NCBI GenBank assembly: GCA_003142795.1
Contig: PLNN01000041.1
Span: forward strand, 6,286-43,784
Direction of reading: 5' to 3'
Length of the DNA: 37,499 nt
Source of the DNA: Candidatus Omnitrophota bacterium
GTDB taxonomy: Bacteria; Omnitrophota; Gorgyraeia; 2-01-FULL-45-10
The notes beneath the pieces are model-generated. The model was given only the letters and a program-made list of their open reading frames with translations, was not told the origin of the DNA and made no database searches. Both the position numbers and the translations under genes were made by a program. Position 1 is the stretch's first letter, and each line of letters begins with the position of its first letter. This document shows positions 19,084 through 33,429 of the stretch, one piece after another.

Positions 19084-19180
19084 GTTTACCCATCACAAGC
19101 ACAAAATCCCCACTCTCGACGATAAAGCATAGCACAGATTTTCTAAATATTCTAATAAATCCCCTTAAAATAGCCCCATC

Positions 19181-19199
19181 TGTTACGTTCTGCTACGTT
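19181..19199 (+). promoter_or_regulatory. Left arm-type integrase sites
   Basis: TGTTACGTT (19181-19189) and TGCTACGTT (19191-19199) are tandem copies one helical turn apart, about 100 bp inside attL. The same pair recurs at 33281-33300 just inside attR in the same orientation, the expected arrangement for arm sites bound by a tyrosine integrase N-terminal domain. The rest of the 146-bp spacer between attL and the first gene shows nothing else I can name. Confidence 0.65.
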
Positions 19200-19228
19200 T
19201 ACCTTTTTAAATTCCTAATGGTGGCTCT

Positions 19229-19768
19229 ATGAGTTGGAATCATACCGACATAATGCACTATGTCTTTGATTCGGGAGCTTGGGAACGCCTTACAAAGAAT
19301 GAACTCCGAGTATATCTGCAAATCTGTAAGCACTATAACCTCAAAGAACATCGCTCCTATCCGAGTATAAACACACTGGCCGAAGAAGTATCAGTCTCAA
19401 GACTTGCCGTGATCCGAGCAATAAAGAAGCTAAAGGACGAGGGGCTTGTTGTAGTCAAGCAAGAGAGGCTAGGGAAGAGTTTCAAATGTAACATATATCA
19501 AATCCCCGACTACCTACTGAGGGAAATAGATAACAAAAAGGACGTGGTATCAAAAGAGATACTAGGTAGTATCATAAAATCGCTAGGTGGTATCAATTCC
19601 GATCAGGACAAGCACATAACCTACATAACGAATATATATAACTCTGTTATTAGTAATAATAAAAGAACTAGTTTAGTATCGAACGAGCCTTTAAGAAGAC
19701 CTAAAGACGTCTTTATGGGAATCTCTAAAGACGAAAGAACAGAGCTACAAGCGAAGGGGTTACTATGA
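19229..19768 (+). CDS. Winged-helix DNA-binding protein
   Basis: This 179-residue protein has an N-terminal winged helix-turn-helix (about residues 15-90: LTKNELRVYLQICKHYN, then YPSINTLAEEVSVSRLAVIR as the recognition part). This is the pattern of the HTH_36/replication-initiator-like group common in phages and plasmids. The C-terminal half is polar and unrecognised. It is the first gene after attL and overlaps the next gene by 4 bases (ATGA). The ribosome site GGTGG precedes the ATG. A role as early regulator or initiator accessory factor is plausible but unproven. Confidence 0.6.
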   Translation: MSWNHTDIMHYVFDSGAWERLTKNELRVYLQICKHYNLKEHRSYPSINTLAEEVSVSRLAVIRAIKKLKDEGLVVVKQERLGKSFKCNIYQIPDYLLREIDNKKDVVSKEILGSIIKSLGGINSDQDKHITYITNIYNSVISNNKRTSLVSNEPLRRPKDVFMGISKDERTELQAKGLL

Positions 19769-20436
19769 AGTCTAAGCACTCAGAGCTAATTCCCCTTAAT
19801 CCTAAAACTCTATCGCCTATAAAACAGGCTCTCAAGGGCGTTACCTTAACGAACTGCACGATCAATATTTATGTATCTCCTCAAGGATCATCAGCCGAGA
19901 TCAAGTCGAACATACCTGATAAATCTCTCCTCGAATATAAAGAGCCTCAATTCATCACGCCTAGAGACGCCTCAGAAATTCACGGATTAAGCGCACCTTT
20001 TTTCCTGTCTTTAGCTCATAAGATAGGAGAACACGACGGCATACGTTGGGTATTAGAAGAAGGAAAACTTGCGGAGTATTTGAGGGAACACCCCGAACAC
20101 CGAGAGAGAAGCCTCGCCTCTAAGAAATTAATTAATCCGCAACTACTTGCAGAAAGAGGGTATCAAATTTTAAAGGACGAGAGTAAGCAAGTCTATCCCG
20201 ACACGGCAAGAGTGCCTTCGGCTAATCGAAGCCGTTATATGTCTTATTCGGAGCTTGCTCGAAGGCTCGGCATTAGTTATTCGCTCTACTATGGCAAAGT
20301 GAGGCAAATTCTATATAAATTAATAAAGCAAAAGCCAGAGGAGGTAACTAAGAAGAAACAGGAAGACGAGGAATGGAATAGGACAGTTTCAAAATGGAAT
20401 CGAACATTGAAAAGAGACAAGGAATTAGGAAGGTAA
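19765..20436 (+). CDS. Unknown protein with helix-turn-helix-like C terminus
   Basis: This 223-residue protein is not recognised as a whole. Residues about 65-115 (RDASEIHGLSAPFFLSLAHK) resemble an excisionase or MerR-type helix-turn-helix, and residues about 150-190 (SYSELARRLGISYSLYYGKV) look like a second one. The last 35 residues are strongly charged. It starts inside the stop of the preceding DNA-binding gene, so the two are translationally coupled and probably work together in regulation or replication. Confidence 0.5.
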   Translation: MKSKHSELIPLNPKTLSPIKQALKGVTLTNCTINIYVSPQGSSAEIKSNIPDKSLLEYKEPQFITPRDASEIHGLSAPFFLSLAHKIGEHDGIRWVLEEGKLAEYLREHPEHRERSLASKKLINPQLLAERGYQILKDESKQVYPDTARVPSANRSRYMSYSELARRLGISYSLYYGKVRQILYKLIKQKPEEVTKKKQEDEEWNRTVSKWNRTLKRDKELGR

Positions 20437-20454
20437 ACGAAAGGAGATAGTGAG

Positions 20455-21324
20455 ATGAGTTGGAATAATGCAATAAAAGCAAATAAGGCAGAGATAGATC
20501 GTTGCGTGCGTGAGAAGTGCGAGACTATTATAAATGTTGGCAAGTATCTAAAGTCAGCCGGAATGTTGGGTAATCAAAAAACTACCTTCGAAGAATGTCT
20601 CGAAGGAAATAAGGAAGCCCTCGCAAGGATAAGGACAATGCTATATAAAGACCTCGAAAATACAGCATATCACCATAGGGGCAATGTAGATTGGGAGTTA
20701 CTGCAAAGGACAAGAGACGAAAGGTCTATGCGAACTTGGAACGCTTCGGATTCTCGCAAGTCGGGCAAGCCTAAACTTATTCATTATGGCAATGACGCTA
20801 CTCTTAATTGGCTTGTATATGGCTCTGACGAGGGCTTAGACAATAAAGACGACCCATTGCTTAACGCCTTTATGGTTGGCTTTCAGTTGGGGAAAGATGG
20901 ACTTGCTCTATTAAAACAAGGGAAGCAAATAGGAGACATTAAACTTACAAAGCACGAACATAAGGTTGAGAAGTATCTAAGGGAAAAAGACATAATAATT
21001 ACTCCTCGACAGATCGGAAAGGCAGAGCCGAGAAAGCCAATAGAGATTGCCCTCGATTTGTATAAATGCGTGAACGATATATTTGATAACATCTTTACCG
21101 ACAAAGAGCGAGAGGGCTTCGTCAGTTGGTTTGCTTGTGATAGGTCTCTAAGGAAAGCAGGGAAACAGCTTAAGATTGACCCTAAGAGCCTCCACGCTAG
21201 GTTATTTGGGGATAGCAGGGGCGGTGGGGCTATTCGAAAGGTAAGGAATAACCCCCGCCTAAGGGAATTGGCTTGGGAAGCAGGTATTTTAAAAAATCTT
21301 CCTAAAACTCCCCCCACAAAATAG
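20455..21324 (+). CDS. Unknown 289-residue element protein
   Basis: I do not recognise this protein. It is soluble and mainly helical, with no membrane segment. Near the C terminus, VSWFACDRSLRKAGKQLKID followed by PKSLHARLFG could be a helix-turn-helix, suggesting nucleic-acid binding. The ribosome site AAAGGAG at about 20439-20445 is good. It ends the first gene group of the element, and a 246-bp spacer with a possible terminator follows. Confidence 0.5.
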   Translation: MSWNNAIKANKAEIDRCVREKCETIINVGKYLKSAGMLGNQKTTFEECLEGNKEALARIRTMLYKDLENTAYHHRGNVDWELLQRTRDERSMRTWNASDSRKSGKPKLIHYGNDATLNWLVYGSDEGLDNKDDPLLNAFMVGFQLGKDGLALLKQGKQIGDIKLTKHEHKVEKYLREKDIIITPRQIGKAEPRKPIEIALDLYKCVNDIFDNIFTDKEREGFVSWFACDRSLRKAGKQLKIDPKSLHARLFGDSRGGGAIRKVRNNPRLRELAWEAGILKNLPKTPPTK

Positions 21325-21570
21325 GGTATTGTAGCCTATATATGGAAGGTAACTTGAAAATCGCACATATGATATAGAGGGGTATTTCGGACACCTAAAA
21401 GCACTATTTATGATGCAATCAAGGCAAATGTTCGGACAAAATTGAGTAAGTGAAGGGATAAGAAGACAAACCCGCAGTAAAGCCCGATCTGTTTCAAATT
21501 CGTTGGGGGAATCAAAAACCCCTCTTTTTTAAAAACTTCTGTTTTACCGCAGTAAATAGGAGACCCCATA
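21325..21570 (+). terminator. Spacer with possible intrinsic terminator
   Basis: There is no gene in this 246-bp spacer. GGGG at 21505-21509 pairs with CCCC at 21519-21522 and is followed by TCTTTTTT, a short-stem terminator that would end the first gene group. CCGCAGTAAA occurs twice (about 21470 and 21546), flanking the hairpin, which may be a regulatory repeat. Confidence 0.45.
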
Positions 21571-21795
21571 ATGAAGCAATATCTGATAAAAGACCTCGCA
21601 GATATTCTCAAATGTAGCAAGCAAGCAATATTGTGGCACGTCCACAAGAAGCATATTAAGGCCGAAGCAAGGCTAATGGGTAGTCAGCCTGTATGGGTAA
21701 TAAAAGAAGATCAGGCAGTAAAATTGGTATGGATATTGTTTTTAAATTCAGGAAAGGGGAGAAAAAAATGTGGTGGAAAAAAGCAGATAGACTAA
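21571..21795 (+). CDS. Small helix-turn-helix protein
   Basis: The protein has 74 residues. The N terminus, YLIKDLADILKCSKQAILWH, followed by HIKAEARLMGSQPVWVIKE, has the shape of a MerR/excisionase-type helix-turn-helix with a wing. AGGAGACC provides the ribosome site. It overlaps the next gene by 28 bases. It may be a second directionality factor or a transcriptional regulator of the replication genes that follow. Partner and site are unknown. Confidence 0.6.
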   Translation: MKQYLIKDLADILKCSKQAILWHVHKKHIKAEARLMGSQPVWVIKEDQAVKLVWILFLNSGKGRKKCGGKKQID

Positions 21796-22004
21796 ATGAC
21801 CTAACAAAGGCAATTGCAGACGAAGTGGTAAGTCTCAGATTTCTTGTGGCAAGGAATGAATTGTATCAGCTCAGACTACTTGCAAAGGTGGCTCTCGGGA
21901 CTGTCCTGACGCCCGAAGACTTGCTCAAGACAATGGCTGAGGCGAAATTGGAAATGTCTTTTGAAGACGTTAAGGCAAATGTAATGGCAGAGATTCAAAG
22001 ATAA
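21768..22004 (+). CDS. Unknown small protein, 78 residues
   Basis: The start is taken at ATG 21768, which follows AGGGGAG. The longer in-frame version begins inside the upstream gene and has no ribosome site. The product is helical and charged (begins MWWKKADRLNDL), with a segment LTPEDLLKTMAEAKLEMSFE that looks like a coiled-coil or small adaptor. I do not recognise it. It is part of the tightly packed second gene group leading to the primase. Confidence 0.55.
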   Translation: MWWKKADRLNDLTKAIADEVVSLRFLVARNELYQLRLLAKVALGTVLTPEDLLKTMAEAKLEMSFEDVKANVMAEIQR

Positions 22005-22032
22005 AATTCAAAGATAAAAGGAGAATATAAGA

Positions 22033-22200
22033 ATGAAAGAGCAGAAAATAAATGAGAGATTATCAAAATACATAGATAAAACCTATGAGAAATTTGGTTG
22101 GAATCCTAGACAGACAGAAATAAACTCTGAGGGCGATCTGCCTTTAAAAGAGGCGAGCGTCAAAGGTGCTGACTACGAAAAGGCCGTCGGTAGATCGTGA
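22033..22200 (+). CDS. Unknown small protein, 55 residues
   Basis: ATG at 22033 follows AAAGGAG at about 22017-22023. The frame runs 55 codons to a TGA that overlaps the GTG of the next gene (GTGA), which supports translation. The product is polar and not recognised. Confidence 0.5.
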   Translation: MKEQKINERLSKYIDKTYEKFGWNPRQTEINSEGDLPLKEASVKGADYEKAVGRS

Positions 22201-22436
22201 AGCCTTACGGAATCGGTTGGGTGCAAAAGAGTGAACGCCGTTATCTTGGGCGATTAAAGTTTTGTGTTTATGGACTTGATTCTTATTGCGTAATCGAGGG
22301 AGGTAATCACAGACGCTATACCACAAATATGACGGGCTTCCCTAAATATTGTTACGAGGGGATTCTACTAAGTTTTAACCTGATATATAAATATGGCTTT
22401 AAACCCGAAGCAATTAACGTAAGAAAGGAAGAATAG
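22197..22436 (+). CDS. Unknown small protein, 79 residues
   Basis: It starts at GTG 22197, overlapping the previous stop by 4 bases. The sequence suggests a small mixed strand/helix domain rich in tyrosine and glycine (IGWVQKSERRYLGRLKFCVY, CYEGILLSFNLIYKYGF). No motif is recognised. Compact spacing on both sides, 4 bases to the cold-shock gene, makes it part of the same operon. Confidence 0.5.
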   Translation: MKPYGIGWVQKSERRYLGRLKFCVYGLDSYCVIEGGNHRRYTTNMTGFPKYCYEGILLSFNLIYKYGFKPEAINVRKEE

Positions 22437-22440
22437 AAGA

Positions 22441-22686
22441 ATGAAAGGCACAGTCAACTTTTTCTCAACGCAGGGGTGGGGTTTTATAAAGGGCGATGAT
22501 AAGCAGGATTATTACGTCCATCATACAGGCATTGCTACCGACGAGACTTTTAAAATGCTAATGAAGAATGAGGTTGTCGAGTTTGACATTCAGCCGACAG
22601 ATAAGCCCCGTCCAATGGCGGTAAATGTCAAAGTTACCAGAGTATATAAGAATGAGGAGAAGGCAAATGCAGACAGAAGTATATAA
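22441..22686 (+). CDS. Cold-shock domain protein carried by the element
   Basis: This 81-residue protein begins GTVNFFSTQGWGFIKGDD, the first strand and RNP1-like region of the CspA fold (usual KGFGFI replaced by QGWGFI), then DYYVHHTGI as the RNP2-like HxH region, and EVVEFDIQ. CspA-type proteins bind single-stranded nucleic acid. The gene directly precedes and overlaps the primase-helicase by 20 bases, suggesting a single-strand binding role in element replication or mRNA handling. It is slightly longer and more divergent than host CspA. Confidence 0.8.
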   Translation: MKGTVNFFSTQGWGFIKGDDKQDYYVHHTGIATDETFKMLMKNEVVEFDIQPTDKPRPMAVNVKVTRVYKNEEKANADRSI

Positions 22687-23947
22687 AGATACGGAGACGA
22701 ACACAAGCTCCGAGAATGAAGTTACCTTTAATCATAACAAGGTAGCAAGTAGTATTTTAAATCGCAATCAAATTATATATATCGAAGAGCAGGACGCCTT
22801 TTATATTTACAAGGATAACTATTATCAGAAATTTCGAGTGGGGCAAATAGGCAAGGAAATCAAAAGAGTTGTTGGGAATAAGTTTTCAAAACACACGCAG
22901 GCAGAGGTTATTAACTCGCTCAAGGCTGACGCCATTATTAAATTCGAGGACTTAAACAGCTCTTCGCTTTTGAACTTAAAGAATGGCTTATTTGACATAG
23001 CGTCCGAGACCCTGATTCCCCATTCGCCTCAAGTCAAAAGCACGATTCGCCTCAATGTTTCTTATAACAAAGATGCTAAATGCCCGAAGTGGCGGAAAGC
23101 AATCTCTGAGATATTGGAGGACGAAGGGAAAATATCGGTCTTTCAGGAATATTGCGGTCTATGCCTAACAAAAGAAACTCGCTATGCAAAGGCTTTGTTT
23201 CTGATCGGCGAGGGGGCTAACGGCAAATCAACGCTCCTTGCTCTCTTGGAGCATATCTTAACCTCGCTCAACGTCTCCTCAATACCGCTTGAAATGCTCA
23301 AGAATAATAACTACGTCGCAAATCTCTTCAATAAGCTAGTCAACATAAGCTTTGAAACGAACAGCAAAAGCGAGGTTTATGACGCAACATTCAAGTCAAT
23401 CGTTACGGGCGATTTAATGACAGCCGACGCAAAGTATGGACACCCTTTTGACTTTCGTCCGTATTGTAAACTGATTTATGCCCTCAACAATATGCCGAGA
23501 GTAAGCGACAAAACCCTTTCCTTTTACAGACGGCTTTTAATATTAAGGTTTAATAAGACGTTTGAAGGGGCAAGCGATAACAAAGGTCTCAAAGAGGAAC
23601 TCTTGACCGAGCTAGATGGCATTTTCCTTTGGTGCTTGGAGGGGCTTCGAAATCTAAGACAGAGAGGCGATTTTAAGCCGACAGAGGAAATGGAGCGAGA
23701 AGTTAAAGACTATCAGAGGGAGAATAACGCCGTCCTAGTCTTTGCGGAAGAGAAGTGCAATATAGATCCTAAGGCAAGCACTACAAAACAGATTCTATAT
23801 GACACCTTCAAAATCTGGTGCGAGGAGAACGGCCATAAGCCTGCGAGCCAAAGACACTTCACTAACGACCTGAAGAAAGCCTATCCGTCTTTAAAGGACG
23901 GACGAACGGAAGAGGCAAGGTTTTTAGAAGGTATCTGCCTAAAATAA
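22667..23947 (+). CDS. SF3 primase-helicase / replication initiator (D5/P4 type)
   Basis: I start at ATG 22667, after GAGGAGAAGG, giving 426 residues. An upstream in-frame start lies inside the cold-shock gene and lacks a ribosome site. Walker A is GEGANGKST at residues 181-189. The D5 N-terminal-like region precedes it (LLNLKNGLFDIASETLIPHS), and LIYALNNMPRVSDKTLSFYR RLLIL-type residues follow as the SF3 core with sensor and arginine-finger positions. The C-terminal part resembles the DNA-binding domain of P4 alpha-like proteins. No catalytic primase domain is visible, so it is mainly helicase and initiator. Iterons lie directly downstream, as in satellite Rep-ori modules. Confidence 0.9.
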   Translation: MQTEVYKDTETNTSSENEVTFNHNKVASSILNRNQIIYIEEQDAFYIYKDNYYQKFRVGQIGKEIKRVVGNKFSKHTQAEVINSLKADAIIKFEDLNSSSLLNLKNGLFDIASETLIPHSPQVKSTIRLNVSYNKDAKCPKWRKAISEILEDEGKISVFQEYCGLCLTKETRYAKALFLIGEGANGKSTLLALLEHILTSLNVSSIPLEMLKNNNYVANLFNKLVNISFETNSKSEVYDATFKSIVTGDLMTADAKYGHPFDFRPYCKLIYALNNMPRVSDKTLSFYRRLLILRFNKTFEGASDNKGLKEELLTELDGIFLWCLEGLRNLRQRGDFKPTEEMEREVKDYQRENNAVLVFAEEKCNIDPKASTTKQILYDTFKIWCEENGHKPASQRHFTNDLKKAYPSLKDGRTEEARFLEGICLK

Positions 23948-23964
23948 AACTCATTTAAGAGCCT

Positions 23965-24091
23965 AAATGACGCAAATGACGCAAATGACGCTTCTTCCCT
24001 ATGTTATTACAGAAATCAAAATATATATATACAATAAGAAGATGTGTCATTTCTGTCATTTCTGTCATTTTAAGCACAAACTAAATGACGC
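23965..24091. other. Iteron replication origin with AT-rich core
   Basis: Three perfect tandem copies of AAATGACGC (23965-23991) face three tandem copies of TGTCATTTC/T (24045-24071), whose complement is (G/A)AAATGACA. A seventh copy, AAATGACGC, is at 24083-24091. Between the opposed sets lies an AT-rich core containing ATATATATATACA. Opposed iterons around an AT-rich melting region next to an SF3 initiator is the structure of satellite and phage origins such as those of SaPIs. A frame through it encodes CHFCHFCHF, an artefact of the 9-base period. Confidence 0.85.
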
Positions 24092-24115
24092 AACGAGGGG
24101 AAAAGAGGGAAAAAC

Positions 24116-24703
24116 GTGTCAAAACGACTTACAGAGAAAGAAAAGGAATTCCTCCGGCTCTATACCGACACGGGGAGCGAGACATTCGGAAATGGAACAA
24201 GAAGTTACGCAAGGGTATATAAACCTAAGAACAATAATGTGGCAGGCGTTATGGCTTTAAGACTATTAAGAAAGGTAAAGGTGAAAAAGTATATGGCAGA
24301 ACAAACGAAGGAATGGGAGCTGGATATAGGCAAGCACGTGCAAGCACTCGACGAAATGGTAAACTCACTCATTGACAAGGCAAAAGCAAAGGGAGGGCTG
24401 ACTATCGCCGAGTTGGAGAAGCTTGTTAAGCCGATTCGATTCTTTGCGGAGTATGCGGGGAAGGTTGGCTCAGGCAATCAAGTCAACATCGCAATATTAC
24501 AGCAGGAATGGAAGAACGGCTCTACTCGTCAATGTCCGACTTGTGGGTATTCGCCGATGGGAATGTTACGCCTTGAAGAAATAATGAAAGACCTTCCTCC
24601 GCTTAAGCCCATCATAAACACACAGGCACAAGTTGAGTATGAGAAGACGCTCGAGCCTCAGGCAAATTTAGATCGGGCAATGGTTACGGCGAAGGACAGC
24701 TAA
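24116..24703 (+). CDS. Probable terminase small subunit (TerS)
   Basis: This 195-residue protein starts at GTG after GAGGG. The N-terminal region LTEKEKEFLRLYTDTGSETF, then GTRSYARVYK, then VMALRLLRKVKVKKYMAEQ is the pattern of small terminase DNA-binding domains, where a helix-turn-helix is followed by a stretch ending in VKKYM. A helical oligomerisation-like part follows, with QCPTCGYSPMG near residue 140 as a single CxxC. TerS selects the DNA to be packaged. No large terminase gene is present in the element, so it would need a helper phage's TerL. A DNA-binding protein of another kind is the alternative. Confidence 0.7.
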   Translation: MSKRLTEKEKEFLRLYTDTGSETFGNGTRSYARVYKPKNNNVAGVMALRLLRKVKVKKYMAEQTKEWELDIGKHVQALDEMVNSLIDKAKAKGGLTIAELEKLVKPIRFFAEYAGKVGSGNQVNIAILQQEWKNGSTRQCPTCGYSPMGMLRLEEIMKDLPPLKPIINTQAQVEYEKTLEPQANLDRAMVTAKDS

Positions 24704-25411
24704 AATCGGTGCTTTATTATGTCGGGGTGGTAAGCACAGAATAAACAATGAAAAGGGCAGGGGGATTATTTACTATCTCTGGCTCGGCTCAAACATTGGC
24801 AGATTTTAGGAAGCCCGCAAAATCCCTCACAAAATAACAGGGCATTATCGCTAGGATTAGTTATACGGGGCGATAGGTCTTGGATAAGGATAACTTACGG
24901 ACAGGCTTTTCGGTAGGAGATCGTCTATCTGAGGGGCAATTAGAGGGTATTGGCAAGTAGGGTAAAGCAGGGGGCAGTAAGGAGTAGGCAGACAGGGCGA
25001 TAGGTGCTACAAGCAGGGCTGTAATAGCATTGGCGGGCAAGGACAGGCACTATATCGTATGTATGCTATGGATAGACTAGCCTCTACACACGCAAGGATT
25101 GACGTTCGGTCTTAATGTGAGCATATATATAGAAACAAGCCTTCAGCAGAAGACCCTTCACCCGCCCCAGACCCCTTGCTCTCTATGGTATAGTCAAAGA
25201 CATAATCGCCACCTATTCCCAAATCTCAGTTAGGAATAAATAGTCAGCTATTTACTCAGGGCAGGCTCAAGACACCTTAAACCGCCCGCCTCCGGCGGCA
25301 AACAGTTTGCTTCATTTAATTTATTCAAACAAGAGGGTGGCCTCATTCAAATCTTGAAGTTGAAATAATTTTTTGCGGGAAAATTTGAAATCTCAAAAAG
25401 AAAGGTGAAGT
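24704..25411. other. Long non-coding tract, 708 bp, between TerS and virion-like genes
   Basis: There is no frame of useful length with a start on either strand. The first half (about 24720-25100) is purine-rich on the plus strand with many TAG triplets. GGGCGATAGGT-like phrases occur at about 24870 and 24996. The second half has a perfect hairpin TAAATAGTCAGCTATTTA at 25237-25254, then CCGCC/GGCGG at 25286-25298 and GCAAACAGTTTGC at 25298-25310. Candidates are a packaging site (pac or cos), a structured RNA, a late promoter region, or the scar of lost packaging genes. Confidence 0.5.
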
Positions 25412-25576
25412 ATGGCAAGTCTTGGACTTAATGCTCTGACGGGCAAATTAGATTTAAAAACTTCTAATCTAGACAAAATGCCAATTTCTGATTCTGATAC
25501 ATACTTTAAATGGGTAGCCCCGAACACAATAGAACTATATGTTAATGGGGTTAAGGCTCAATCTTGGACAATATAA
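25412..25576 (+). CDS. Small virion-like protein, 54 residues
   Basis: ATG 25412 follows AAAGGTGAAG and opens 54 codons. The end, TIELYVNGVKAQSWTI, resembles the strand pattern at the end of phage fibre or decoration proteins. It stands alone ahead of the late-type genes and uses the same kind of ribosome site (AAAGGTGA) as the next gene. I cannot identify it further. Confidence 0.5.
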   Translation: MASLGLNALTGKLDLKTSNLDKMPISDSDTYFKWVAPNTIELYVNGVKAQSWTI

Positions 25577-25597
25577 CAAAAAAAGAAAGGTGATTTT

Positions 25598-26488
25598 ATG
25601 GCAAATAAGAATTGGGGCGAATCCTTCGCCGAGAGTTTTTCAGAAGGTTTGAATAACGGTATGCGTATGGCTTTTCAAGGAACTCAAATGGCTCAACAGG
25701 AACGGCAAAATCAGATGATGATGGACGCCCGAATGTTTGAACATGGCTACGAGAGGATTGATCCTAAAGACAACGAGGAGGAATTGAAGCAGGCCATATG
25801 GGAGAAGAAAGCCGAAGGTTATCCCGTTGCCGGAGGTGGGGCGGTTGGTATTCCCATTGGTGGGAAAGCGAAAGACGGCATTATCTATGACGCTCAGGGA
25901 AATGAGAAGGGCAGTTACACAGGAGAAGCTCCTAAGCCCGTAAGCAATCTTGTTTCAGGCTACGGAAAGAACATCGTCCGTATAGGCAATCTTTGGTATA
26001 AAGCCCCCGATCCTTCTAATGCTGATGATATTAACTCCGTCGTGGAGAAATTGAACAAGTCTTATCAGGGCGGTGGCTCTTTTATTCCTTCAACAAAAAG
26101 CGTTGGTGAAGTTACTTATCACTATCAGCCTAGTATTGAAGAACAATATGGAGGTTGGAGACAGCAGAACGGTTTTCAAAACGCTCCTATACAACAAATG
26201 CCAATAGAGACGCCAATGCAAGCTCCCATTCAATCTCCCGTTAGCACAATACAGCCTCCTAAGGCAGTAATACAAATGCGTAATATGGTTAGTAACGCAG
26301 TTGCGGAAGGGGCTTCTCTCGAAGAAATTTTACAAGGGATTAAAGATGAGGGAATGAATCCGATGGACTACGCCGACTTACTCAAGCCTCTCATTTCAAA
26401 GAGACAGACTGCTCCCGTTAAGCCTCAATCTCCCTATAACTTAATCAACACTAAAGCGAGAAGCAATAACAAGAGGAATCTAATCTAA
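25598..26488 (+). CDS. Virion-associated-like protein with glutamine/proline-rich middle
   Basis: The protein has 296 residues. The N terminus is helical and methionine/glutamine-rich (MRMAFQGTQMAQQERQNQMM), like small internal or head-completion proteins of podophages. Residues about 185-225 are rich in P, Q, I and M in near-repeat form (PIQQMP, PMQAPIQ, PVSTIQPP), and the C terminus is helical. No enzymatic motif is seen. Its stop overlaps the ATG of the 872-residue gene by one base, so both are expressed together. Function is unknown, and structural or ejection-complex partner is an inference. Confidence 0.5.
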   Translation: MANKNWGESFAESFSEGLNNGMRMAFQGTQMAQQERQNQMMMDARMFEHGYERIDPKDNEEELKQAIWEKKAEGYPVAGGGAVGIPIGGKAKDGIIYDAQGNEKGSYTGEAPKPVSNLVSGYGKNIVRIGNLWYKAPDPSNADDINSVVEKLNKSYQGGGSFIPSTKSVGEVTYHYQPSIEEQYGGWRQQNGFQNAPIQQMPIETPMQAPIQSPVSTIQPPKAVIQMRNMVSNAVAEGASLEEILQGIKDEGMNPMDYADLLKPLISKRQTAPVKPQSPYNLINTKARSNNKRNLI

Positions 26489-29106
26489 TGTCTTGGTTTA
26501 AAGATAAATATGGAACTACCGAAACACAGGCGACGCCTGATCCTAACGTGCAGAGTGCGGTTGAAGAATATCACGCTGCACACGAAGACCCCTCGCTGAC
26601 AGAAGCTCTCCTCAATACCTTTAAGAGCGTTGCGAGCGAATCTATTCCCTCGCTAGTGGCAAAAGCAGGAACAGGCTTACTTGCCCCCGATGTTTTAATG
26701 AAGCTTTCTAACGCAGCAGCAGAAGAAAGCAAAAAGCCTCTAAGGAAACTTACTCAAGGCGTGGTAGATAAATTCTCCGATGAGACCGTATCTCCTGACA
26801 CAGCCTCAGCATTACTCAATAGCCCTCTTCCGGCAATGGGGGCAGGCCTAGCTGTCGGAAGTCAAATCTCTCCTCAAGCAGCCGTCAATGCTGCCCGTGA
26901 GGTCGCCATCGATCCGAGAACTTATTTATATGGTGGAATGAGTGCGGAGGGTAAGACTGCTAAAACCGCCGAAGAAGCTCTCGCCTTACAGACAGAGCCT
27001 CCGGCGATACTCCGTCAGGGACAGGCACTCCCTAAATATGCCGAAAATATAAACCTTAAGACAATGCCTGCCGATGTAAGACAGAAACTCTATGAGGTTG
27101 TCTCAAGCAATCCCTCAATCGGAATCACTCCTAAAATCTCAAACGCTGAACTTGTGCAAAAGGCGAGCGAACTTAAGGACACGCCTATAATAAATTACCT
27201 GACTAATCTCAAAGACGGCTCGCTAGAGGCAGAAGCTCTTAAACTCCGAATGGGAAACACTCAGCTTCTTAGAGACGCTCTTAAGTCAGACTTAACGGAT
27301 ATGAAAGGCTCTCTCGACGCAATTATTGAATCAGATGTTGCGAAGCAGAGAAAGGTTGCCTCTATCTTTGGGCGAGGACTTCAACAGCAGACTATCTCTC
27401 CCGAGGCACAGCAGGAATTGGCTTTTGCCATTGAGGATAAGATAAAAGCGATTAAGAGAGACCCTGCTTTTGGTAATGATAAAGAGCTAATTGGAACTTT
27501 GGAGAATCTTAGAAAGACAGTCATTAACCCTGCCTTTGAGCCGACAGCCTTTAATAAGGTCTATTACGTTTGGCTTAATTCTATTCTATCTTCGCCAATG
27601 ACGCATATAGTAAATACGACGAGCAATACGTTATTCGCCTTGAGTAAGATACCTGAGAAATTTGCCTCAAGTGTTATGGACTTGCCGATCTCTTTATTTA
27701 CGGGCAAGAGGACGCAATTCTTCGGCGAAATACCCGCAATGATTAAGGGGGCATTTAGTCGAGAAGCACTTCCGGCAGAACTAACACAGGCAGGCTCTAA
27801 GCTCGATGTTTATGCTCAGCCGATAAAAGGACTAGCCGGAAAGATAATCGGAACTCCGACAAACCTCTTACAGCTAGAAGATAACTTGGCAAAGAACGTC
27901 GTCGGGAAAATGGAACTCTACGCTCAGAGATACGCAGGGAAGACGGGCGATGAGTTGATTCAGGCCGTAAAGGGAGAACAGCTCTATCGAACCTTTCAGA
28001 ATGAGCCGACAGCACTTGCAAAAGGTTTAATGACGTTACGAAGTAAAGTGCCTTTCGTCCGTTATGTTGTGCCATTTCTTCGCACTCCATCGAACATAAT
28101 CGAAAGAGGGTTAGAGAGGACGCCTTTAATCTTAGGCAAGATGGCCTATAAGGGCGTGAAGGGAACTTACACTCAAGCAGAACTCGCAAAGGATATGGGG
28201 CTTCTCTCTATGTCTTCAATGCTTACAGGCTATATTGCTTGGCAGGTTGGTAAGGGAAATCTCAATGGCGACGCCCCAGAAGGAAAAGCTGAGAGAGACG
28301 CTTTCTTTAGACAGGGCAAGAAACCGAATAGCATTAAGGTGGGCGATTCTTGGATTCCGCTAGATCGCCTAGAGCCGTTTGGAACTTCATTCTCCACAAT
28401 AGCAAACTTAATAACAAAGTATCAATCTTCCGACAAGGACATACCCGCCGAGAAAGCAATGGACGCAGTTGCCTCTTTGGGTAAGACCCTAACGACGAAG
28501 AGTTATTTGTCGGGAATGACAGGGCTTCTTAAGGGCTTGAGTGATCCCGAACTCTACGGAGCAGGCTTCTTCCGCAGAACGGCGTCGGGAGCTGTCCCTA
28601 ACGCTCTTTCATTCTTTGCTAATCTCAAAGACCCTTATTACAGGGAAGCAAATTCTGTCTTGGATTATATGAAAATGAAAGTGCCTTTCTTAAGCGAGAC
28701 ACTCCCTCCGAAGTTAAACGCTTTGGGCGAGCCTGTAAAGAGAGACGTCCTTAATATTGGCAAAGCGAATGAAGACCCGTTGAATCAATTAGCGATAGGT
28801 TTTCCGTCAAAGAAGATAGGAGACGTTAAGCTATCGCCTGAGCAATATAATCAGGTCTTGCAGGAACGGGGAGCGATAATCAAGCCCCTCTTGGAAAAGA
28901 TAACCTCGAATCCCGATTGGTGGAATAGTTTATCGCCTGAGGCGAGAGATAAAATTATCGAGAACGTAACCTCGAAAGGTGGGATGATCGCAAAGAAGAA
29001 AACAAGAATGCAGATGGAAATGGAAGGTCGCAGGGGTTTTAACGAGTGGAAACAGTTTAAGAATTTCGGAAAGTCAAAATTTGCTTTGAAGTATGGCAAA
29101 AAATAA
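26488..29106 (+). CDS. Large internal-virion / DNA-ejection-like protein, 872 residues
   Basis: It has features recurrent in very large phage internal or polyvalent proteins: the segment WLNSILSSPMTHIVNTTSNT near residue 370, the segment RYVVPFLRTPSNIIERGLER near residue 524, alanine/glycine-rich amphipathic stretches (about residues 60-160), and a hydrophobic SMLTGYIAWQVG segment near residue 578. These resemble proteins that travel with the genome and enter the cell at infection. No catalytic motif is recognised, such as transglycosylase, protease or RNA polymerase. It is by far the longest gene of the element, and no head or tail gene accompanies it. Confidence 0.55.
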   Translation: MSWFKDKYGTTETQATPDPNVQSAVEEYHAAHEDPSLTEALLNTFKSVASESIPSLVAKAGTGLLAPDVLMKLSNAAAEESKKPLRKLTQGVVDKFSDETVSPDTASALLNSPLPAMGAGLAVGSQISPQAAVNAAREVAIDPRTYLYGGMSAEGKTAKTAEEALALQTEPPAILRQGQALPKYAENINLKTMPADVRQKLYEVVSSNPSIGITPKISNAELVQKASELKDTPIINYLTNLKDGSLEAEALKLRMGNTQLLRDALKSDLTDMKGSLDAIIESDVAKQRKVASIFGRGLQQQTISPEAQQELAFAIEDKIKAIKRDPAFGNDKELIGTLENLRKTVINPAFEPTAFNKVYYVWLNSILSSPMTHIVNTTSNTLFALSKIPEKFASSVMDLPISLFTGKRTQFFGEIPAMIKGAFSREALPAELTQAGSKLDVYAQPIKGLAGKIIGTPTNLLQLEDNLAKNVVGKMELYAQRYAGKTGDELIQAVKGEQLYRTFQNEPTALAKGLMTLRSKVPFVRYVVPFLRTPSNIIERGLERTPLILGKMAYKGVKGTYTQAELAKDMGLLSMSSMLTGYIAWQVGKGNLNGDAPEGKAERDAFFRQGKKPNSIKVGDSWIPLDRLEPFGTSFSTIANLITKYQSSDKDIPAEKAMDAVASLGKTLTTKSYLSGMTGLLKGLSDPELYGAGFFRRTASGAVPNALSFFANLKDPYYREANSVLDYMKMKVPFLSETLPPKLNALGEPVKRDVLNIGKANEDPLNQLAIGFPSKKIGDVKLSPEQYNQVLQERGAIIKPLLEKITSNPDWWNSLSPEARDKIIENVTSKGGMIAKKKTRMQMEMEGRRGFNEWKQFKNFGKSKFALKYGKK

Positions 29107-29115
29107 GGGGGAACT

Positions 29116-29859
29116 ATGCCACAATACACGCCGGAGGAAATGGCACAGAGGGCTGATTTCTATCTTAATAAGAAAGGTCTTAAGGATAGGGCTCAGGTAG
29201 TAAAGGATAAGCAAGAAGCCTTTGAAAAGGCTGCAAAGAAATATGGCGTTACACAGGAGCAATTTCAGCGAGGGATATTTCCCGATGAAGTAAAGGAGCT
29301 ATACGAGGACTACGCTAAGCACGATATTTTCTTAAGGCGAGCTGTCCAATGGAACATTGAGAATGACGCTAAAGAGGCAGGCGGTTACGATAAGTCGGGC
29401 GAGGCACTAGAGAACGAGTTTAATGGCTACGTCGCCACGAAAGAAACTACGGCAGAGCAGTTGAAGAAGATTAAAGAGGTAGAAGACAATTATAATAAAT
29501 ATCAGGACAGGGACAGTCTAACAAATTATGTAAAAACTACGATAGAGGCTAAAGGTGCAACGCCTGAGGAAAGAATCGAGAATGAAGTGCAGGAACGCCA
29601 CGATCAGGTGCAGGGGGCTATGGATCGCCTAAGGGATATTACAAAAGAAAACGAAGCCCGCACGAAAGCTGATAAGATTATGAAGGTGAACGACTACAAG
29701 GAATCGAGAGAAGCAATCGAGAAAGAGGCACTAGCCGATAAAAGGTTAATGCACTCAAACATTCCTCCTACTCGCAAAGATAACTTCACGATTGAAGTTG
29801 AGCAGAGGACAAATCAAATCCTAAAAGAAAGGGGCTACAATGTCATTCAAGAAGACTAA
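29116..29859 (+). CDS. Coiled-coil protein of the virion-like block
   Basis: This 247-residue protein is highly charged and helical from about residue 75 on (many E, K, D, R and Q), with an N-terminal EEMAQRADFYLNKKGLKDRA and no hydrophobic core segment. It reads as a coiled coil or scaffold-like protein. It starts 9 bases after the 872-residue gene with GGGG as ribosome site, and overlaps the next small gene by 20 bases. It is probably a partner of the large protein, and no family is recognised. Confidence 0.5.
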   Translation: MPQYTPEEMAQRADFYLNKKGLKDRAQVVKDKQEAFEKAAKKYGVTQEQFQRGIFPDEVKELYEDYAKHDIFLRRAVQWNIENDAKEAGGYDKSGEALENEFNGYVATKETTAEQLKKIKEVEDNYNKYQDRDSLTNYVKTTIEAKGATPEERIENEVQERHDQVQGAMDRLRDITKENEARTKADKIMKVNDYKESREAIEKEALADKRLMHSNIPPTRKDNFTIEVEQRTNQILKERGYNVIQED

Positions 29860-29992
29860 CCCGCAAGCTGAACGTGCAAAGAGAGAAGCAGAGGCGATGA
29901 AAGACTTAGCATTTAGGAAGAGTGCGGGAACGAGAATTACCGCTCCGAGACTTCCGCCTGAAAGAGTAAGCTACAACGGCAAGTTGATTTAA
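29840..29992 (+). CDS. Small basic protein, 50 residues
   Basis: ATG 29840 follows AAAGGGG and overlaps the end of the preceding gene by 20 bases. The 50-residue product is rich in K, R and A in its first half and ends with RLPPERVSYNGKLI. It is the last gene of the virion-like group, and a strong hairpin follows 30 bases later. It is not recognised. Confidence 0.5.
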   Translation: MSFKKTNPQAERAKREAEAMKDLAFRKSAGTRITAPRLPPERVSYNGKLI

Positions 29993-30022
29993 CCGACTAA
30001 TCTCTAAGCCTAGATTTTAAAT

Positions 30023-30052
30023 GAGGGGGTGCTTCGGCATAAGCACTTCCTC
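30023..30052 (+). terminator. Strong hairpin after the virion-like block
   Basis: GAGGGGGTGCTT (30023-30034) pairs with AAGCACTTCCTC (30041-30052), giving 12 pairs including two G-U around loop CGGCAT. The following T tract is poor, so efficiency as an intrinsic terminator is uncertain. The rest of the 253-bp spacer up to 30245 holds a repeated CGTGGAACAT (30123-30132 and 30168-30177) and no gene. Confidence 0.5.
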
Positions 30053-30245
30053 AGGTCGGCTTTGTCTTAAAGACCGTGCCGAGCGAAGCGAGGCCTCAAG
30101 ACCGTATAAAATACAGTAACGGCGTGGAACATAATATTTATTTTTAGGGGGTTTTTAGCTTTGATTTCGTGGAACATTGGTAAAAATCGTGCCAAATAGG
30201 TGGTCTAAATAGTGTTATAGTGAGAGGACTTTTTTAGGGTGGGGC

Positions 30246-30632
30246 TTAGTGTTCTTCAAAATCCTTGATCGTTTTAAGTCCTTTGATATAAACCTTTTTT
30301 AGAGTTAATGTTTTGTCGTGTTTTTTTAGCTCTGTGAATCTTTTCATATCTTCTTCTGTTAATTCGAGTTTAACGTCGAGGGTAGTATCGTGAAGCGACT
30401 TTTTAACAGATTGCTCTAATTTGTATTTCTTCTCTAAGATATAGGCGTGAGAAATATTATTATCACCGAGAATATAAACTATACTTCTGATAACGGCAGG
30501 GGAGGGAAGCTTGTTATGTTTTTCTATTTGTGTGATATAGACAGGGTTGACGCTGATCCTCTCGGCTAATTCGTAAACCTTCAAACCCTTTGCCTGACGA
30601 GCTTCTCTTATAATCTGACCGAATCGTTTCAT
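30246..30632 (-). CDS. Xre/CI-like repressor
   Basis: This 128-residue protein has an N-terminal helix-turn-helix of the Xre family (IREARQAKGLKVYELAERIS, then VNPVYITQIEKHNKLPSP) and a charged C-terminal region without the S24 self-cleavage domain. It is the only minus-strand gene of the element and is divergent from a Cro-like gene, as in lysogeny switches. Its promoter ends 7 bases before the ATG, so the message is likely leaderless, as for lambda cI from PRM. Without a LexA-like domain, induction must come from something other than RecA-driven self-cleavage, for example a helper-encoded antirepressor. Confidence 0.85.
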   Translation of the reverse strand: MKRFGQIIREARQAKGLKVYELAERISVNPVYITQIEKHNKLPSPAVIRSIVYILGDNNISHAYILEKKYKLEQSVKKSLHDTTLDVKLELTEEDMKRFTELKKHDKTLTLKKVYIKGLKTIKDFEEH

Positions 30633-30639
30633 AGTAAAA

Positions 30640-30668
30640 AGTATATCCCAAAACTAACTAACAGGCAA
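30640..30668 (-). promoter_or_regulatory. Repressor promoter, predicted leaderless
   Basis: On the minus strand TTGCCT (30668-30663) and TATACT (30645-30640) are 17 bases apart. The start codon lies 7 bases after the -10, at the expected transcription start. The operator copy at 30651-30664 fills the spacer, so bound repressor would act on its own promoter. Confidence 0.75.
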
Positions 30669-30727
30669 ATGTTATTTTTTATTTGACAAAGACCGATTCA
30701 TAGTGTAAACTAACTAACAGAAGTTAG
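30651..30727. promoter_or_regulatory. Operator repeats of the switch
   Basis: AAACTAACTAACAG occurs at 30651-30664 and again, identical, at 30707-30720. The second copy overlaps the palindrome CTAACAGAAGTTAG at 30714-30727. One copy sits in the repressor promoter and the other overlaps the -10 of the rightward promoter, so binding can shut either direction. Confidence 0.75.
30683..30711 (+). promoter_or_regulatory. Rightward (Cro-side) promoter
   Basis: A perfect TTGACA at 30683-30688 and TAAACT at 30706-30711 are 17 bases apart. Start would be near 30718, giving a leader of about 79 bases before the Cro-like ATG at 30797. The second operator overlaps the -10. Confidence 0.8.
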
Positions 30728-30796
30728 GCAGTATCAAGTAGGGCAAAGTTTTTTTTGGTTTGTAGCTCAAATAATAAATAAATGGAGGTGGTAAAT

Positions 30797-30988
30797 ATGG
30801 CAACGGCATTAAAATTGGAGCGGACGAGGCAGAACATTAAGCAGTATAGACTTGCCTCTCTAGTTGGTATCTCGCCCTCAGAGCTTAGTCTCTATGAGAG
30901 CGGAAGACAACGCTGTCCGGCAGATATGAGGCATAGGATAGCGGACGTGTTGAAGGTTAAGGTAGAGCAGTTATTCGAGGAAAACTAA
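30797..30988 (+). CDS. Cro-like helix-turn-helix protein
   Basis: I use ATG 30797 because GGAGGTGG at 30784-30791 fits it. The in-frame ATG at 30782 precedes that site. The 63-residue product is a single Xre helix-turn-helix (LERTRQNIKQYRLASLVGIS, then PSELSLYESGRQRCPAD, then ending VEQLFEEN). It diverges from the repressor and heads the integrase operon, so it is the expected Cro-type partner. It might instead be an activator of recombination genes. Confidence 0.85.
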   Translation: MATALKLERTRQNIKQYRLASLVGISPSELSLYESGRQRCPADMRHRIADVLKVKVEQLFEEN

Positions 30989-31006
30989 AAGGGGAGGGTT
31001 GGGAGA

Positions 31007-31231
31007 ATGAAAAAGATTAAATTATATAATAAAGTAGAAATTAAAAAGAATGTCAAAGAGTTGGAAAATTTTACTTTTGAAGATGAAGAACTTGTGAGGC
31101 TTGGTTTCAAGTGCGATGGACACGCCACAGAATACGGAGAGAGAGCTTGGCGTTGGATAAGAGGAGAGGAATCAATAATCGCTTGGGACGTAGGAAATGG
31201 ATTCTGTTGTGTAATGGGAAGGCAGGCGTGA
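31007..31231 (+). CDS. Unknown small protein, 74 residues
   Basis: GGAGGG and GGGAG precede the ATG. The product has an N-terminal charged region and a compact, tryptophan-rich C-terminal part (GERAWRWIRGEESIIAWD then GNGFCCVMG). No family is recognised. It is 19 bases after the Cro-like gene and 1 base before the zinc-ribbon gene, so it belongs to the same early operon. Confidence 0.5.
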   Translation: MKKIKLYNKVEIKKNVKELENFTFEDEELVRLGFKCDGHATEYGERAWRWIRGEESIIAWDVGNGFCCVMGRQA

Positions 31232-31232
31232 A

Positions 31233-31358
31233 ATGAAATGCTCAAAATGCGGTAGCGGTTACATCGAGATAAAGAAGTCGAATTGCTTGAGAGCGATTGC
31301 AGTTTGTAAGTGCTGCCTCTTCGCTTGGGTGGTTAATCTCTTCAAGGGTGCGATATGA
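31233..31358 (+). CDS. Small zinc-ribbon protein, 41 residues
   Basis: ATG 31233 opens 41 codons encoding a CSKCGSG knuckle and a second CKCC knuckle about 22 residues later, a minimal zinc ribbon, with a hydrophobic tail (LFAWVVNLFKG). The stop overlaps the ATG of the serine recombinase (ATGA), supporting translation. Its role is unknown. Confidence 0.6.
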   Translation: MKCSKCGSGYIEIKKSNCLRAIAVCKCCLFAWVVNLFKGAI

Positions 31359-31897
31359 AGATTGCCCTCTATGCCCGAGTAAGTAAGGACGATGGAAGTC
31401 AGACAACGGACAATCAGTTAGAGCCTCTGCGTAAGTATGCCTCTGCTATGGGTTGGGAAGTAGTCAAAGAATATGTGGAAATGGTGTCGGGTGGTGGAAA
31501 ATATCGGGAAGAATTTAATAATATGCTAAGTGATTCTGATAAACACCTTTTTGACACTATCCTTATTTGGTCGCTTGATAGATTTTCAAGAGAAGGAACA
31601 TCTACAATGTTGGGATATGTGGATAGGCTTAAAAGAAATAAGGTTGGGCTTTGCTCCCTTCAGGAAAGGTGGCTTGATATTTCAGATTCAGGCATTGCAA
31701 CGGACGTTATTCTGCCTATTCTTGCTTGGGTTGCAAAAATGGAAAGACAACGCATAAGCGAAAGAACAAAGGCGGGTTTAGCAAGGGCAAAAGCTCAGGG
31801 CGTAAAACTTGGTCGCAAGAAAGGCTCTAAAGACAAGGTGCGTCGAGTTAGATCAGGCTACGTCAAAAGATGGAGAGGAGAAAAGAAGAATGGATAG
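31355..31897 (+). CDS. Small serine recombinase (resolvase/invertase)
   Basis: The protein has 180 residues. The catalytic serine is S10 in ALYARVSKDDGSQTTDNQLE, and the catalytic arginines are in LDRFSREG near residue 76 and MERQRISERTKAGL near residue 128, with the E helix and a short basic DNA-binding tail (GVKLGRKKGSKDK). Lengths near 180-200 are typical of resolvases and invertases, not of large integrases. With a tyrosine integrase present it is a second recombinase, perhaps resolving multimers formed by iteron replication. The tail lacks an obvious full helix-turn-helix, so site binding may be unusual. Confidence 0.9.
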   Translation: MKIALYARVSKDDGSQTTDNQLEPLRKYASAMGWEVVKEYVEMVSGGGKYREEFNNMLSDSDKHLFDTILIWSLDRFSREGTSTMLGYVDRLKRNKVGLCSLQERWLDISDSGIATDVILPILAWVAKMERQRISERTKAGLARAKAQGVKLGRKKGSKDKVRRVRSGYVKRWRGEKKNG

Positions 31898-32033
31898 AGA
31901 GGAGCTTGCTCAGGAATTGGCAGAAGAATTTATCAATGACGGCAGGCCTATTGAGGAAGTAAAAGACCTTATGCGGGATTTAACGGTTGAGACAATACTA
32001 AAATTTAAGGAACTATCGAAGGAGGCAGAATAA
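31890..32033 (+). CDS. Unknown small acidic protein, 47 residues
   Basis: The start is taken at ATG 31890 after GGAGAGGAG; the longer frame has no ribosome site. The 47-residue product is acidic and helical (EELAQELAEEFINDGRPIEE). It overlaps the recombinase end by 8 bases and its TAA overlaps the next ATG. It may be a small accessory factor of one of the recombinases, which is inference from position only. Confidence 0.5.
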   Translation: MDREELAQELAEEFINDGRPIEEVKDLMRDLTVETILKFKELSKEAE

Positions 32034-32221
32034 TGACTTGGGGAACAGCTAAACAAGTTTCAGAAAAGTTTGCGATACCATTATCAACAGTATATTACTA
32101 TGCGAAGACGGGGGATTTACCTTCAAAGCATATCGCAGGAAGAACAAAATATCCGTTAGACGTTATTGATAAGGACTTTAACAAGAGCGTAAAGGACAAT
32201 GCGAATACAAAAGTTTGGTGA
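32033..32221 (+). CDS. Excisionase-like helix-turn-helix protein
   Basis: This 62-residue protein has a MerR/HTH_17-type motif (GTAKQVSEKFAIPLSTVYYY, then AKTGDLPSKHIAGRTKYPLD), the form common to excisionases and recombination directionality factors. It overlaps the integrase by 23 bases, the classic xis-int arrangement. It should bend DNA at the attachment arms and favour excision. Confidence 0.75.
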   Translation: MTWGTAKQVSEKFAIPLSTVYYYAKTGDLPSKHIAGRTKYPLDVIDKDFNKSVKDNANTKVW

Positions 32222-33269
32222 GCCTTATAGGCGTAAAGATAGCCCCTATTGGTGGATATGGTATTACGACGCCATAGGTAAGCGTAGGCAAGAAAGCACG
32301 CAGACACAGGATAGGGGCTTGGCTATGAAGATTCTCCGCAGCCGGATAATGGAGTATTCACAGCTTAAGGGTGGGGTTAAAGAGACAAGCGATATGCCTT
32401 ATGCAGCATTTGGGGAAGATTATTTAAAATATGTAAAGGCACGTTACACCGCAGAAACTTATAAATCCTATAAAACCGCCGTAAGAGTTTTTAGTGATTA
32501 TCTATTGGGGCAGGGATTATCGAGATTATCAGATATAGACTACGGGCTGATACAGAGATTCATTACAGATCGCCGGAGCAAAGGCAACAAAGCGAATACT
32601 TGTAATAATTATATGAAGAATCTTCACGCTCAATTTGAATATGCGATAACTCAGAAACTTATGCCTCAAAACATAATGCCCATTAAATATTCAAAAATCC
32701 CCGTTACAGATTCAAAAGAGCCGAAAGCCTTAACAGAGGTTGAGTATAAAAGGATTATGACAAGGATTAAGACGGACTACCCGTATTTCTACCCGATATT
32801 CTATGTCTATTTCCACACAGGGTTAAGATTCACAGAACTAATAACTCAAGAATGGAAAGACGTCTTTCTTGATAAGGCATATTTAAGAGTTACAAGACCG
32901 AAAGGGAAAAGGAAAGGAATAGACACAGTTGATCTAAGCAATTCACTAATAAAGATATTTGAGAGTTTTAAGGGTAAGCATAAAACTTATGTATTTGTAG
33001 ATGAAAATAGAGAGCCTTTCAGTATGAGGACAAGAAAGTTTATAAGGCGTATTCAGGCGATAGCGAATGATCTAGGCATTGAAGGGGTAAACCTTCACAC
33101 TACAAGACACACCTTCGGCAGTCATTATATTGACGCCGGAGCGAGCCTTGAGGAGACGCAGCGAGCTTTAAGGCACAGGGAGATCAGAACTACGCAGAGC
33201 TACGTCCATAAGGTAAATCCGTCTCATTCACGTCTTACGGGCATATTGGAGAAGAAATTAAGGATATGA
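32199..33269 (+). CDS. int: Tyrosine integrase of the element
   Basis: This 356-residue phage-type integrase has a basic N-terminal arm-binding region (KFGEPYRRKDSPYWWIWYYD), a SAM-like core-binding domain (about 70-165) and a catalytic domain with R210 in HTGLRFTEL, H300 and R303 in HTTRHTFG, H326 in LRHREI, and nucleophile Y335 in QSYVH. All catalytic residues are intact. The gene ends 80 bases from attR in tRNA-Asp. The overlap with the excisionase gene and the arm-site pair at 33281-33300 complete a working recombination module. Confidence 0.95.
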   Translation: MRIQKFGEPYRRKDSPYWWIWYYDAIGKRRQESTQTQDRGLAMKILRSRIMEYSQLKGGVKETSDMPYAAFGEDYLKYVKARYTAETYKSYKTAVRVFSDYLLGQGLSRLSDIDYGLIQRFITDRRSKGNKANTCNNYMKNLHAQFEYAITQKLMPQNIMPIKYSKIPVTDSKEPKALTEVEYKRIMTRIKTDYPYFYPIFYVYFHTGLRFTELITQEWKDVFLDKAYLRVTRPKGKRKGIDTVDLSNSLIKIFESFKGKHKTYVFVDENREPFSMRTRKFIRRIQAIANDLGIEGVNLHTTRHTFGSHYIDAGASLEETQRALRHREIRTTQSYVHKVNPSHSRLTGILEKKLRI

Positions 33270-33280
33270 AAAAAATGAGC

Positions 33281-33300
33281 TGTTACGTTTCTGCTACGTT
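33281..33300 (+). promoter_or_regulatory. Right arm-type integrase sites
   Basis: TGTTACGTT (33281-33289) and TGCTACGTT (33292-33300) repeat, in the same orientation, the pair at 19181-19199. They lie about 50 bp inside attR. Spacing between the two copies is 11 here versus 10 at the left. Confidence 0.65.
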
Positions 33301-33350
33301 ACTTTAGGGGGTTTTTAATGTATCGACGGAGAAATGAATTGATTTTAAGA

Positions 33351-33369
33351 AATGGCGGGGACGACGGGG
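33351..33369 (+). repeat. attR core within tRNA-Asp
   Basis: This copy of the 19-bp repeat covers the CCA end, the acceptor strand and part of the T arm of tRNA-Asp. The element supplies this 3' end, so the tRNA remains intact after integration. Confidence 0.9.
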
Positions 33370-33429
33370 ATCGAACCCGCGACCTTCAGATCGACAATCT
33401 GACGTTCTAACCAGCTGAACTACGTCCCC
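33353..33429 (-). tRNA. tRNA-Asp (anticodon GUC), integration target
   Basis: On the minus strand the acceptor arms GGGGACG and CGTCCCC pair, the anticodon stem TCAGA/TCTGA encloses TTGTCGA with anticodon GTC, and the T loop is GTTCGATC-type. CCA is encoded, ending at 33353. The gene is complete, with its last bases contributed by the element. Confidence 0.95.

Follow-up and report, generated by a model that had tools for sequence, protein, structure and literature searches.

Phage satellites described so far include kinds without structural genes (PICI, PICMI), kinds with shells (cfPICI, Mulch/Flayer) and a kind with tail parts (PLE), and they are known to steal shells, to resize them or, as in the PLEs (2026), to swap tail parts. 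PICIs have been characterized as islands devoid of phage structural genes, and in TerS-carrying SaPIs the satellite TerS hands the DNA to the helper TerL (PMC6092414). Both cfPICIs and Mulch/Flayer encode their own shell, portal and TerL, the former borrowing the tail and the latter replication (PMC10690885). The PLEs of Vibrio cholerae (2026) assemble chimeric tails that contain a PLE-encoded tape measure and baseplate hub; the tape measure, tail chaperone and baseplate hub of the PLEs are 20%, 20% and 41% identical to those of the helper, and predicted tmp genes are also present in other satellites (PMC12987554). SaPI transduction does not depend on gp44, the ejection protein of 80alpha (PMC7290940). 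In the part of the literature that was covered, we found no description of satellites with internal virion or ejection proteins.

The integrated element at tRNA-Asp

The window, the whole stretch of 37,499 nt of contig PLNN01000041.1 that was analysed and to which all coordinates without other label refer, contains an integrated element of 14,286 bp between exact 19-bp att repeats at a tRNA-Asp site, with a G+C content of 42% compared to 48% outside. A preliminary description had singled out the interval 25412-29992 as a virion-like block led by an 872-residue ejection-type protein and without a capsid gene. This interval is real, but it is one part of the larger element at 19065-33369, which had been left undelimited. 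The features are listed below, together with counterparts in a sister element of the Candidatus Omnitrophota MAG DeMMO3_19 (G288), a genome of the same class and a different family; IVP stands for internal virion protein.

19065-19083: attL, exact 19-bp copy of the tRNA-Asp 3' end
19229-19768, plus strand: replication initiation protein, phage O-like/DnaD-like, 179 aa (Pfam HTH_36, 9e-13; phrog_678, 1e-10)
19765-20436, plus strand: putative DNA-binding protein, 223 aa (HTH matches, all weak)
20455-21324, plus strand: basic protein, 289 aa (no family matched)
22441-22686, plus strand: cold-shock-domain protein, 81 aa (Pfam CSD, 1.7e-12; present in the G288 element too)
22625-23947, plus strand: D5-like replicative helicase, 440 aa (phrog_864, 8e-97; DUF5906/D5_N/Pox_D5)
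24116-24703, plus strand: TerS of the Terminase_2 type, 195 aa (Pfam Terminase_2, 2.2e-7, above cut-off; phrog_51, 2e-10)
24704-25411: 708-bp gap that lacks long ORFs and separates TerS from the virion-protein block
25412-25576, plus strand: 54-aa ORF, with the ribosome-binding-site region AAAAAGAAAGGTGA upstream, the same as before p296
25598-26488, plus strand: p296, 296 aa, directly upstream of IVP (33% identity to the G288 counterpart)
26488-29106, plus strand: IVP, 872 aa, homologue of internal virion (ejection) proteins (phrog_6651, E=1.6e-28)
29116-29859, plus strand: p247, 247 aa, after IVP, acidic (pI 5.3) and highly charged (32% identity to the G288 counterpart)
29840-29992, plus strand: 50-aa ORF, fifth and final product of the block
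30246-30632, minus strand: HTH repressor-like regulator (Pfam HTH_31/HTH_3), divergent from the next gene
30782-30988, plus strand: Cro/CI-like HTH regulator (Pfam HTH_31/HTH_3)
31355-31897, plus strand: small serine resolvase/invertase, 180 aa (Pfam Resolvase, 4.7e-34; counterparts in the G288 element and in phage contig L024)
32033-32221, plus strand: HTH_17/MerR-like protein, 62 aa, which might act as an excisionase
32199-33269, plus strand: tyrosine integrase, 356 aa (Pfam Phage_integrase, 1.2e-23)
33351-33369: attR, 19-bp repeat at the tRNA-Asp gene (33353-33429, minus strand), whose 3' end it overlaps

Pfam and PHROG scans of the element identified no TerL, portal, major capsid, tail or lysis gene, and when it was searched by tblastn with 26 phage proteins covering packaging, head, tail, ejection and lysis, those of the closest phage included, IVP alone was matched; both approaches thus bear out the claimed absence of a capsid gene. 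No defence families were found. By its gene content, the element qualifies as a packaging parasite on account of TerS, which had not been mentioned in the preliminary description. The 708-bp gap behind TerS contains no TerL remnant and might serve as a pac or regulatory region.

A third, imperfect copy of the att repeat (89%) is located at 18646-18664, 419 bp to the left of attL, and a small GIY-YIG gene (18722-18985) lies between the two; this arrangement might be left over from a previous insertion at this tRNA. Elsewhere in the window (16128-17231, minus strand), the Omnitrophota chromosome encodes a homologue of Omptin-family outer-membrane proteases (Pfam, 1.5e-9).

The internal virion protein and the sister element

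ORF calling in the interval 25412-29992 yielded five ORFs with products of 54, 296, 872, 247 and 50 aa at the positions listed above, where the gene of the 872-aa IVP is the third and not the first of the block. Residues 502-750 of IVP align to positions 933-1208 of the PHROG 6651 'internal virion protein' profile (E=1.6e-28), and tblastn with IVP matched 46 phage records, mostly podophages such as Synechococcus phage Syn5, Pelagibacter phage HTVC025P, Desulfovibrio phage ProddE and S-CBP42, at identities of 20-30% and a best E of 4e-27. Podophage internal virion proteins reside in the head, are ejected together with the DNA and form a channel across the envelope (T7 gp14-16, P22 gp7/16/20). 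The similarity is far above chance, and the two segments that had been quoted in the preliminary description, LSSPMTHIVNTTSNT and FLRTPSNIIERGLER, are both located in the 872-aa product within blocks that are conserved with phage internal virion proteins. Searches of IVP against Pfam and NCBIfam returned no family match and those against the PDB by sequence no credible one, and structure prediction was unusable, with a mean pLDDT of 46 for the whole protein (7 rows) and 47 for its core (8 rows). As judged from its sequence, IVP is homologous to podophage internal virion protein D in the C-terminal core of the latter.

The proposed virion-like character is recognizable by homology in this one product of the five. 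Relatives of p296 and p247 were found in the G288 element only, and none were found for the 54-aa and 50-aa ORFs. Neither p296 nor p247 has detectable similarity to the phage neighbours of IVP, including, for p296, the phage proteins just upstream, and p296, p247 and TerS had no match in the phage collection. We place p296 and p247 in a putative virion block by virtue of position and conservation only.

Among 384 phylum genomes, G288 is the sole other carrier of IVP. Its element of approximately 15.9 kb is located inside comM and encodes a 491-aa serine integrase; when its flanks are joined at a common A-run, the ComM reading frame is obtained (..NLAPANVKKEGSAFDL..). The genes follow the order cold shock protein, O-like initiator, TerS, opposite-strand cargo, p296, IVP, p247, HTH protein, resolvase and integrase, so that the order TerS-p296-IVP-p247 is identical in both elements, at identities of 34% for TerS, 33% for p296, 57% over the aligned length for IVP (847 aa in G288) and 32% for p247. 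The O-like initiator of the tRNA-Asp element also has a counterpart in G288 (tblastn, 1e-8), whereas one was looked for and not found for the D5-like helicase. As in the tRNA-Asp element, TerL, portal, capsid and lysis genes were not detected. A profile of the two TerS proteins matched in exactly the same two of the 384 phylum genomes as IVP, indicating that TerS and IVP travel together. The IVP genes of the two elements differ by 0.35, 0.26 and 0.63 at the three codon positions, which means that the protein is under purifying selection. A separate observation concerns contig C26 of G288 (L026, 14144-17688), which carries TerS-like and TerL genes beside a ParB/methylase-like gene with a serine recombinase upstream; this TerL is an orphan near the contig end, with no recognized head genes.

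In total, searches of 146 relatives, 384 phylum genomes, 384 and 383 class genomes (the samples overlap) and eight viral-collection scans revealed this one sister and otherwise phage-like contigs, so that the satellite set is known from two elements. IMG/VR was scanned by short patterns only, and more satellites may exist. A 16.7-bit match in G458 was taken as chance. The host bin of 1.94 Mb, which is 92% complete, includes a phage contig of 15529 bp (C3, L022 of G000) with RecA-like, SbcC/D-like, DNA polymerase I-like, primase-helicase-like, transglycosylase-like and TerL genes. It was rejected as the helper: its TerL is weakly similar to those of T5-like and Rhizobium phages, and it shares no sequence with the element.

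Phage relatives and the possible function of the shortened protein

In phages, the relatives of IVP are situated near portal, TerL and capsid genes; the preliminary description had proposed to look for them next to portal genes. On one viral contig (L011), the order is ejection protein-like (535 aa, phrog_4287), 409 aa, IVP, 122 aa, TerL and portal, and on another (L012) a DNA ejection protein (phrog_4287) and a 230-aa protein precede IVP. In podophage MW202801, genes for TerL, a head-to-tail joining protein, the major capsid protein and a stabilization protein are located upstream of IVP, and ProddE encodes the internal virion proteins B-C-D. Such a setting within a head-tail operon is true of the phage relatives and untrue of the two satellites. 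The sole plasmid match, a 39-kb 'plasmid' of Bordetella bronchiseptica (NZ_CP132331.1, L028), carries terminase, portal, capsid, holin, lysozyme and integrase genes and is thus a podophage-like genome; its IVP core resides in a 382-aa gene adjoining a separate gene of approximately 610 aa. Accordingly, the homologues are podophage virion proteins and not the cytoplasmic enzymes or plasmid proteins that had been considered as an alternative.

The closest phage protein is encoded on G467 (IMGVR_UViG_3300044712_001016), a podophage-like viral contig of 39.5 kb, taken here as a contig with no claim to completeness, which has genes for TerL, a portal-type connector (phrog_332), the major head protein (phrog_1357), a phrog_3287 virion protein and an endolysin. 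The phrog_3287 protein is followed by proteins of 260 aa and 281 aa and an IVP of 1465 aa, residues 802-1438 of which are 53% identical to IVP of the tRNA-Asp element and 57% identical to that of G288; over this shared core, the satellite proteins are 66% identical to each other. In a tree, both satellite proteins form one group with those of G467 and L010 at 100/100 support, the grouping being claimed at that level only. Of a podophage ejection protein, the conserved core, which is the C-terminal ~640 aa, has thus been retained in the satellites, and the variable N-terminal half of ~800 residues has not. Within that N-terminal part in G467 (L043, 6371-8770), a sequence is repeated (WPSNAGAVLNPAGAMIDLVKMARNSKNLAEFRKSVAEN / WPSEAGASLLPVEAARLIIKLAREAKSYAEFRESVSKN), a feature also seen in modular polyvalent proteins. 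A further viral contig, L024 (IMGVR_UViG_3300035660_001176), carries TerL together with relatives of the satellite TerS (38%) and of the small resolvase (37%), and a phage of this type is a possible source of both satellite genes.

Taken together, we consider it somewhat probable that the tRNA-Asp element is a PICI-like satellite of Omnitrophota in which TerS redirects packaging and an ejection protein of its own is placed in the particles of a helper. We infer helper dependence, packaging through TerS, incorporation of IVP, p296 and p247 into particles and a role of these in DNA entry. The element would integrate at tRNA-Asp by its own tyrosine integrase and would replicate by its own initiator and D5 helicase. 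Upon infection by a podophage helper, the satellite TerS would recruit the helper TerL, directing satellite DNA into helper heads, and during head assembly the satellite IVP, probably together with p296 and p247, would replace or join the helper ejection proteins. Satellite particles would then leave with a satellite-encoded ejection component to be used for DNA entry into the next cell, and the ejection protein might thereby affect host range. The broader notion of a class of Omnitrophota satellites that supply their own DNA-ejection proteins inside podophage-built particles, and so control DNA entry and possibly the target cells, appears to us evenly balanced.

At 872 and 847 aa compared to 1465 aa, the satellite proteins are without the N-terminal ~800 aa and may fulfil the function of the phage protein only in part. 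According to the main rival explanation, the shortened IVP is a weapon against the helper that enters helper heads and spoils the ejection apparatus or its assembly, while satellite particles use the full-length protein of the helper. The restriction of both satellite proteins to the core would fit such a role, as would the interference with the reproduction and virion assembly of helpers that is common among satellites (PMC6092414, PMC12987554). However, the lengths of phage IVPs vary widely (1088-1767 aa for complete ORFs among the contigs, 382 aa in Bordetella), so that a short N-terminus need not indicate a defect, and two conserved partner genes in a fixed order would be superfluous if the protein were no more than a poison. 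We consider this explanation unlikely. Still less probable is a redirection of capsid assembly, in which IVP, p296 and p247 would act on head size or as scaffold in the manner of Sid or CpmB and not in DNA entry: p247 resembles scaffolding proteins in its small size, acidity and high charge, and an element of 14-16 kb would benefit from heads smaller than those of a ~40-kb phage, but IVP is homologous to ejection and internal proteins and not to scaffolds, and p247 has no scaffold match.

That the element is a decaying prophage in which a deletion between TerS and IVP has removed the genes for head and tail would account for a gene-free stretch exactly where the missing late genes would be, but this reading, to which we give very little credence, is largely refuted by the intact state of the recognizable genes, the lack of a TerL remnant in the gap, the purifying selection on IVP and the recurrence of the shell-less set in the G288 element, which differs in the type of integrase, the insertion site and the replication genes. 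One shared virion and packaging set in the midst of differing integrases, sites and helicases argues against chance deletion; head and tail genes have hence not been removed only here, and an independently inserted second element of the same design in another family looks like a strategy and not like a wreck.

Comparison with known satellites

With the PICIs (SaPI-like, Gram-negative), the tRNA-Asp element has in common a size of about 15 kb, a specific att site, an integrase, divergent regulators and a replication initiator with primase/helicase; it also matches the optional PICI feature of a TerS without TerL, and portal, capsid and lysis genes are absent in both. In contrast to PICIs, it encodes an internal virion protein of podophage type together with two conserved partner proteins, and as it carries a phrog_6651 homologue we refer to it as 'PICI-like' and do not file it as a PICI. 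The 872-aa protein itself is homologous in its core region to the podophage internal virion protein D (gp16-like) of PHROG 6651, the phage versions of which are mostly longer, with variable N-terminal parts, and are encoded within a full head-tail operon. By description, it may also be likened to gp44 of 80alpha, a virion ejection protein of a satellite-helper pair, which is, however, helper-encoded.

Like cfPICI and Mulch/Flayer, the Omnitrophota satellites carry part of a virion gene set, but it is the complementary part: none of the cfPICI hallmarks (major capsid protein, portal, protease, TerL) were identified in the tRNA-Asp element by family scans and tblastn. By analogy, the closest precedent would be the Vibrio cholerae PLE, in which an own interior virion component is assembled with helper parts, as shown for PLE and proposed here for the tRNA-Asp element. 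The PLE components belong to a contractile tail, whereas here the component is an internal ejection protein of podophage type with 53-57% identity to a phage protein; family scans of the tRNA-Asp element gave no above-chance match to tape-measure or tail families, and the hosts and genes of the PLEs are unrelated to those of the Omnitrophota element. Thus, the 'new satellite strategy' of the preliminary description is partly supported, in that an ejection protein and TerS occur without shell genes in two elements, but given the PLEs (PMC12987554) its kind is not wholly new.

If our reading is true, the element would also be a phage satellite in Omnitrophota, none of which was found described in the literature covered. 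A podophage internal ejection protein kept on its own beside a satellite's own TerS would show that it is worthwhile for a satellite to carry genes for the control of DNA entry alone. The satellite set would offer a minimal system from nature in which to study what podophage internal virion proteins require, and the ~640-aa core common to satellites and phages points to the most constrained part of the 1465-aa phage protein. Such satellites would then form the complement of the capsid-forming satellites and the short-tailed counterpart of the chimeric tails of the PLEs.
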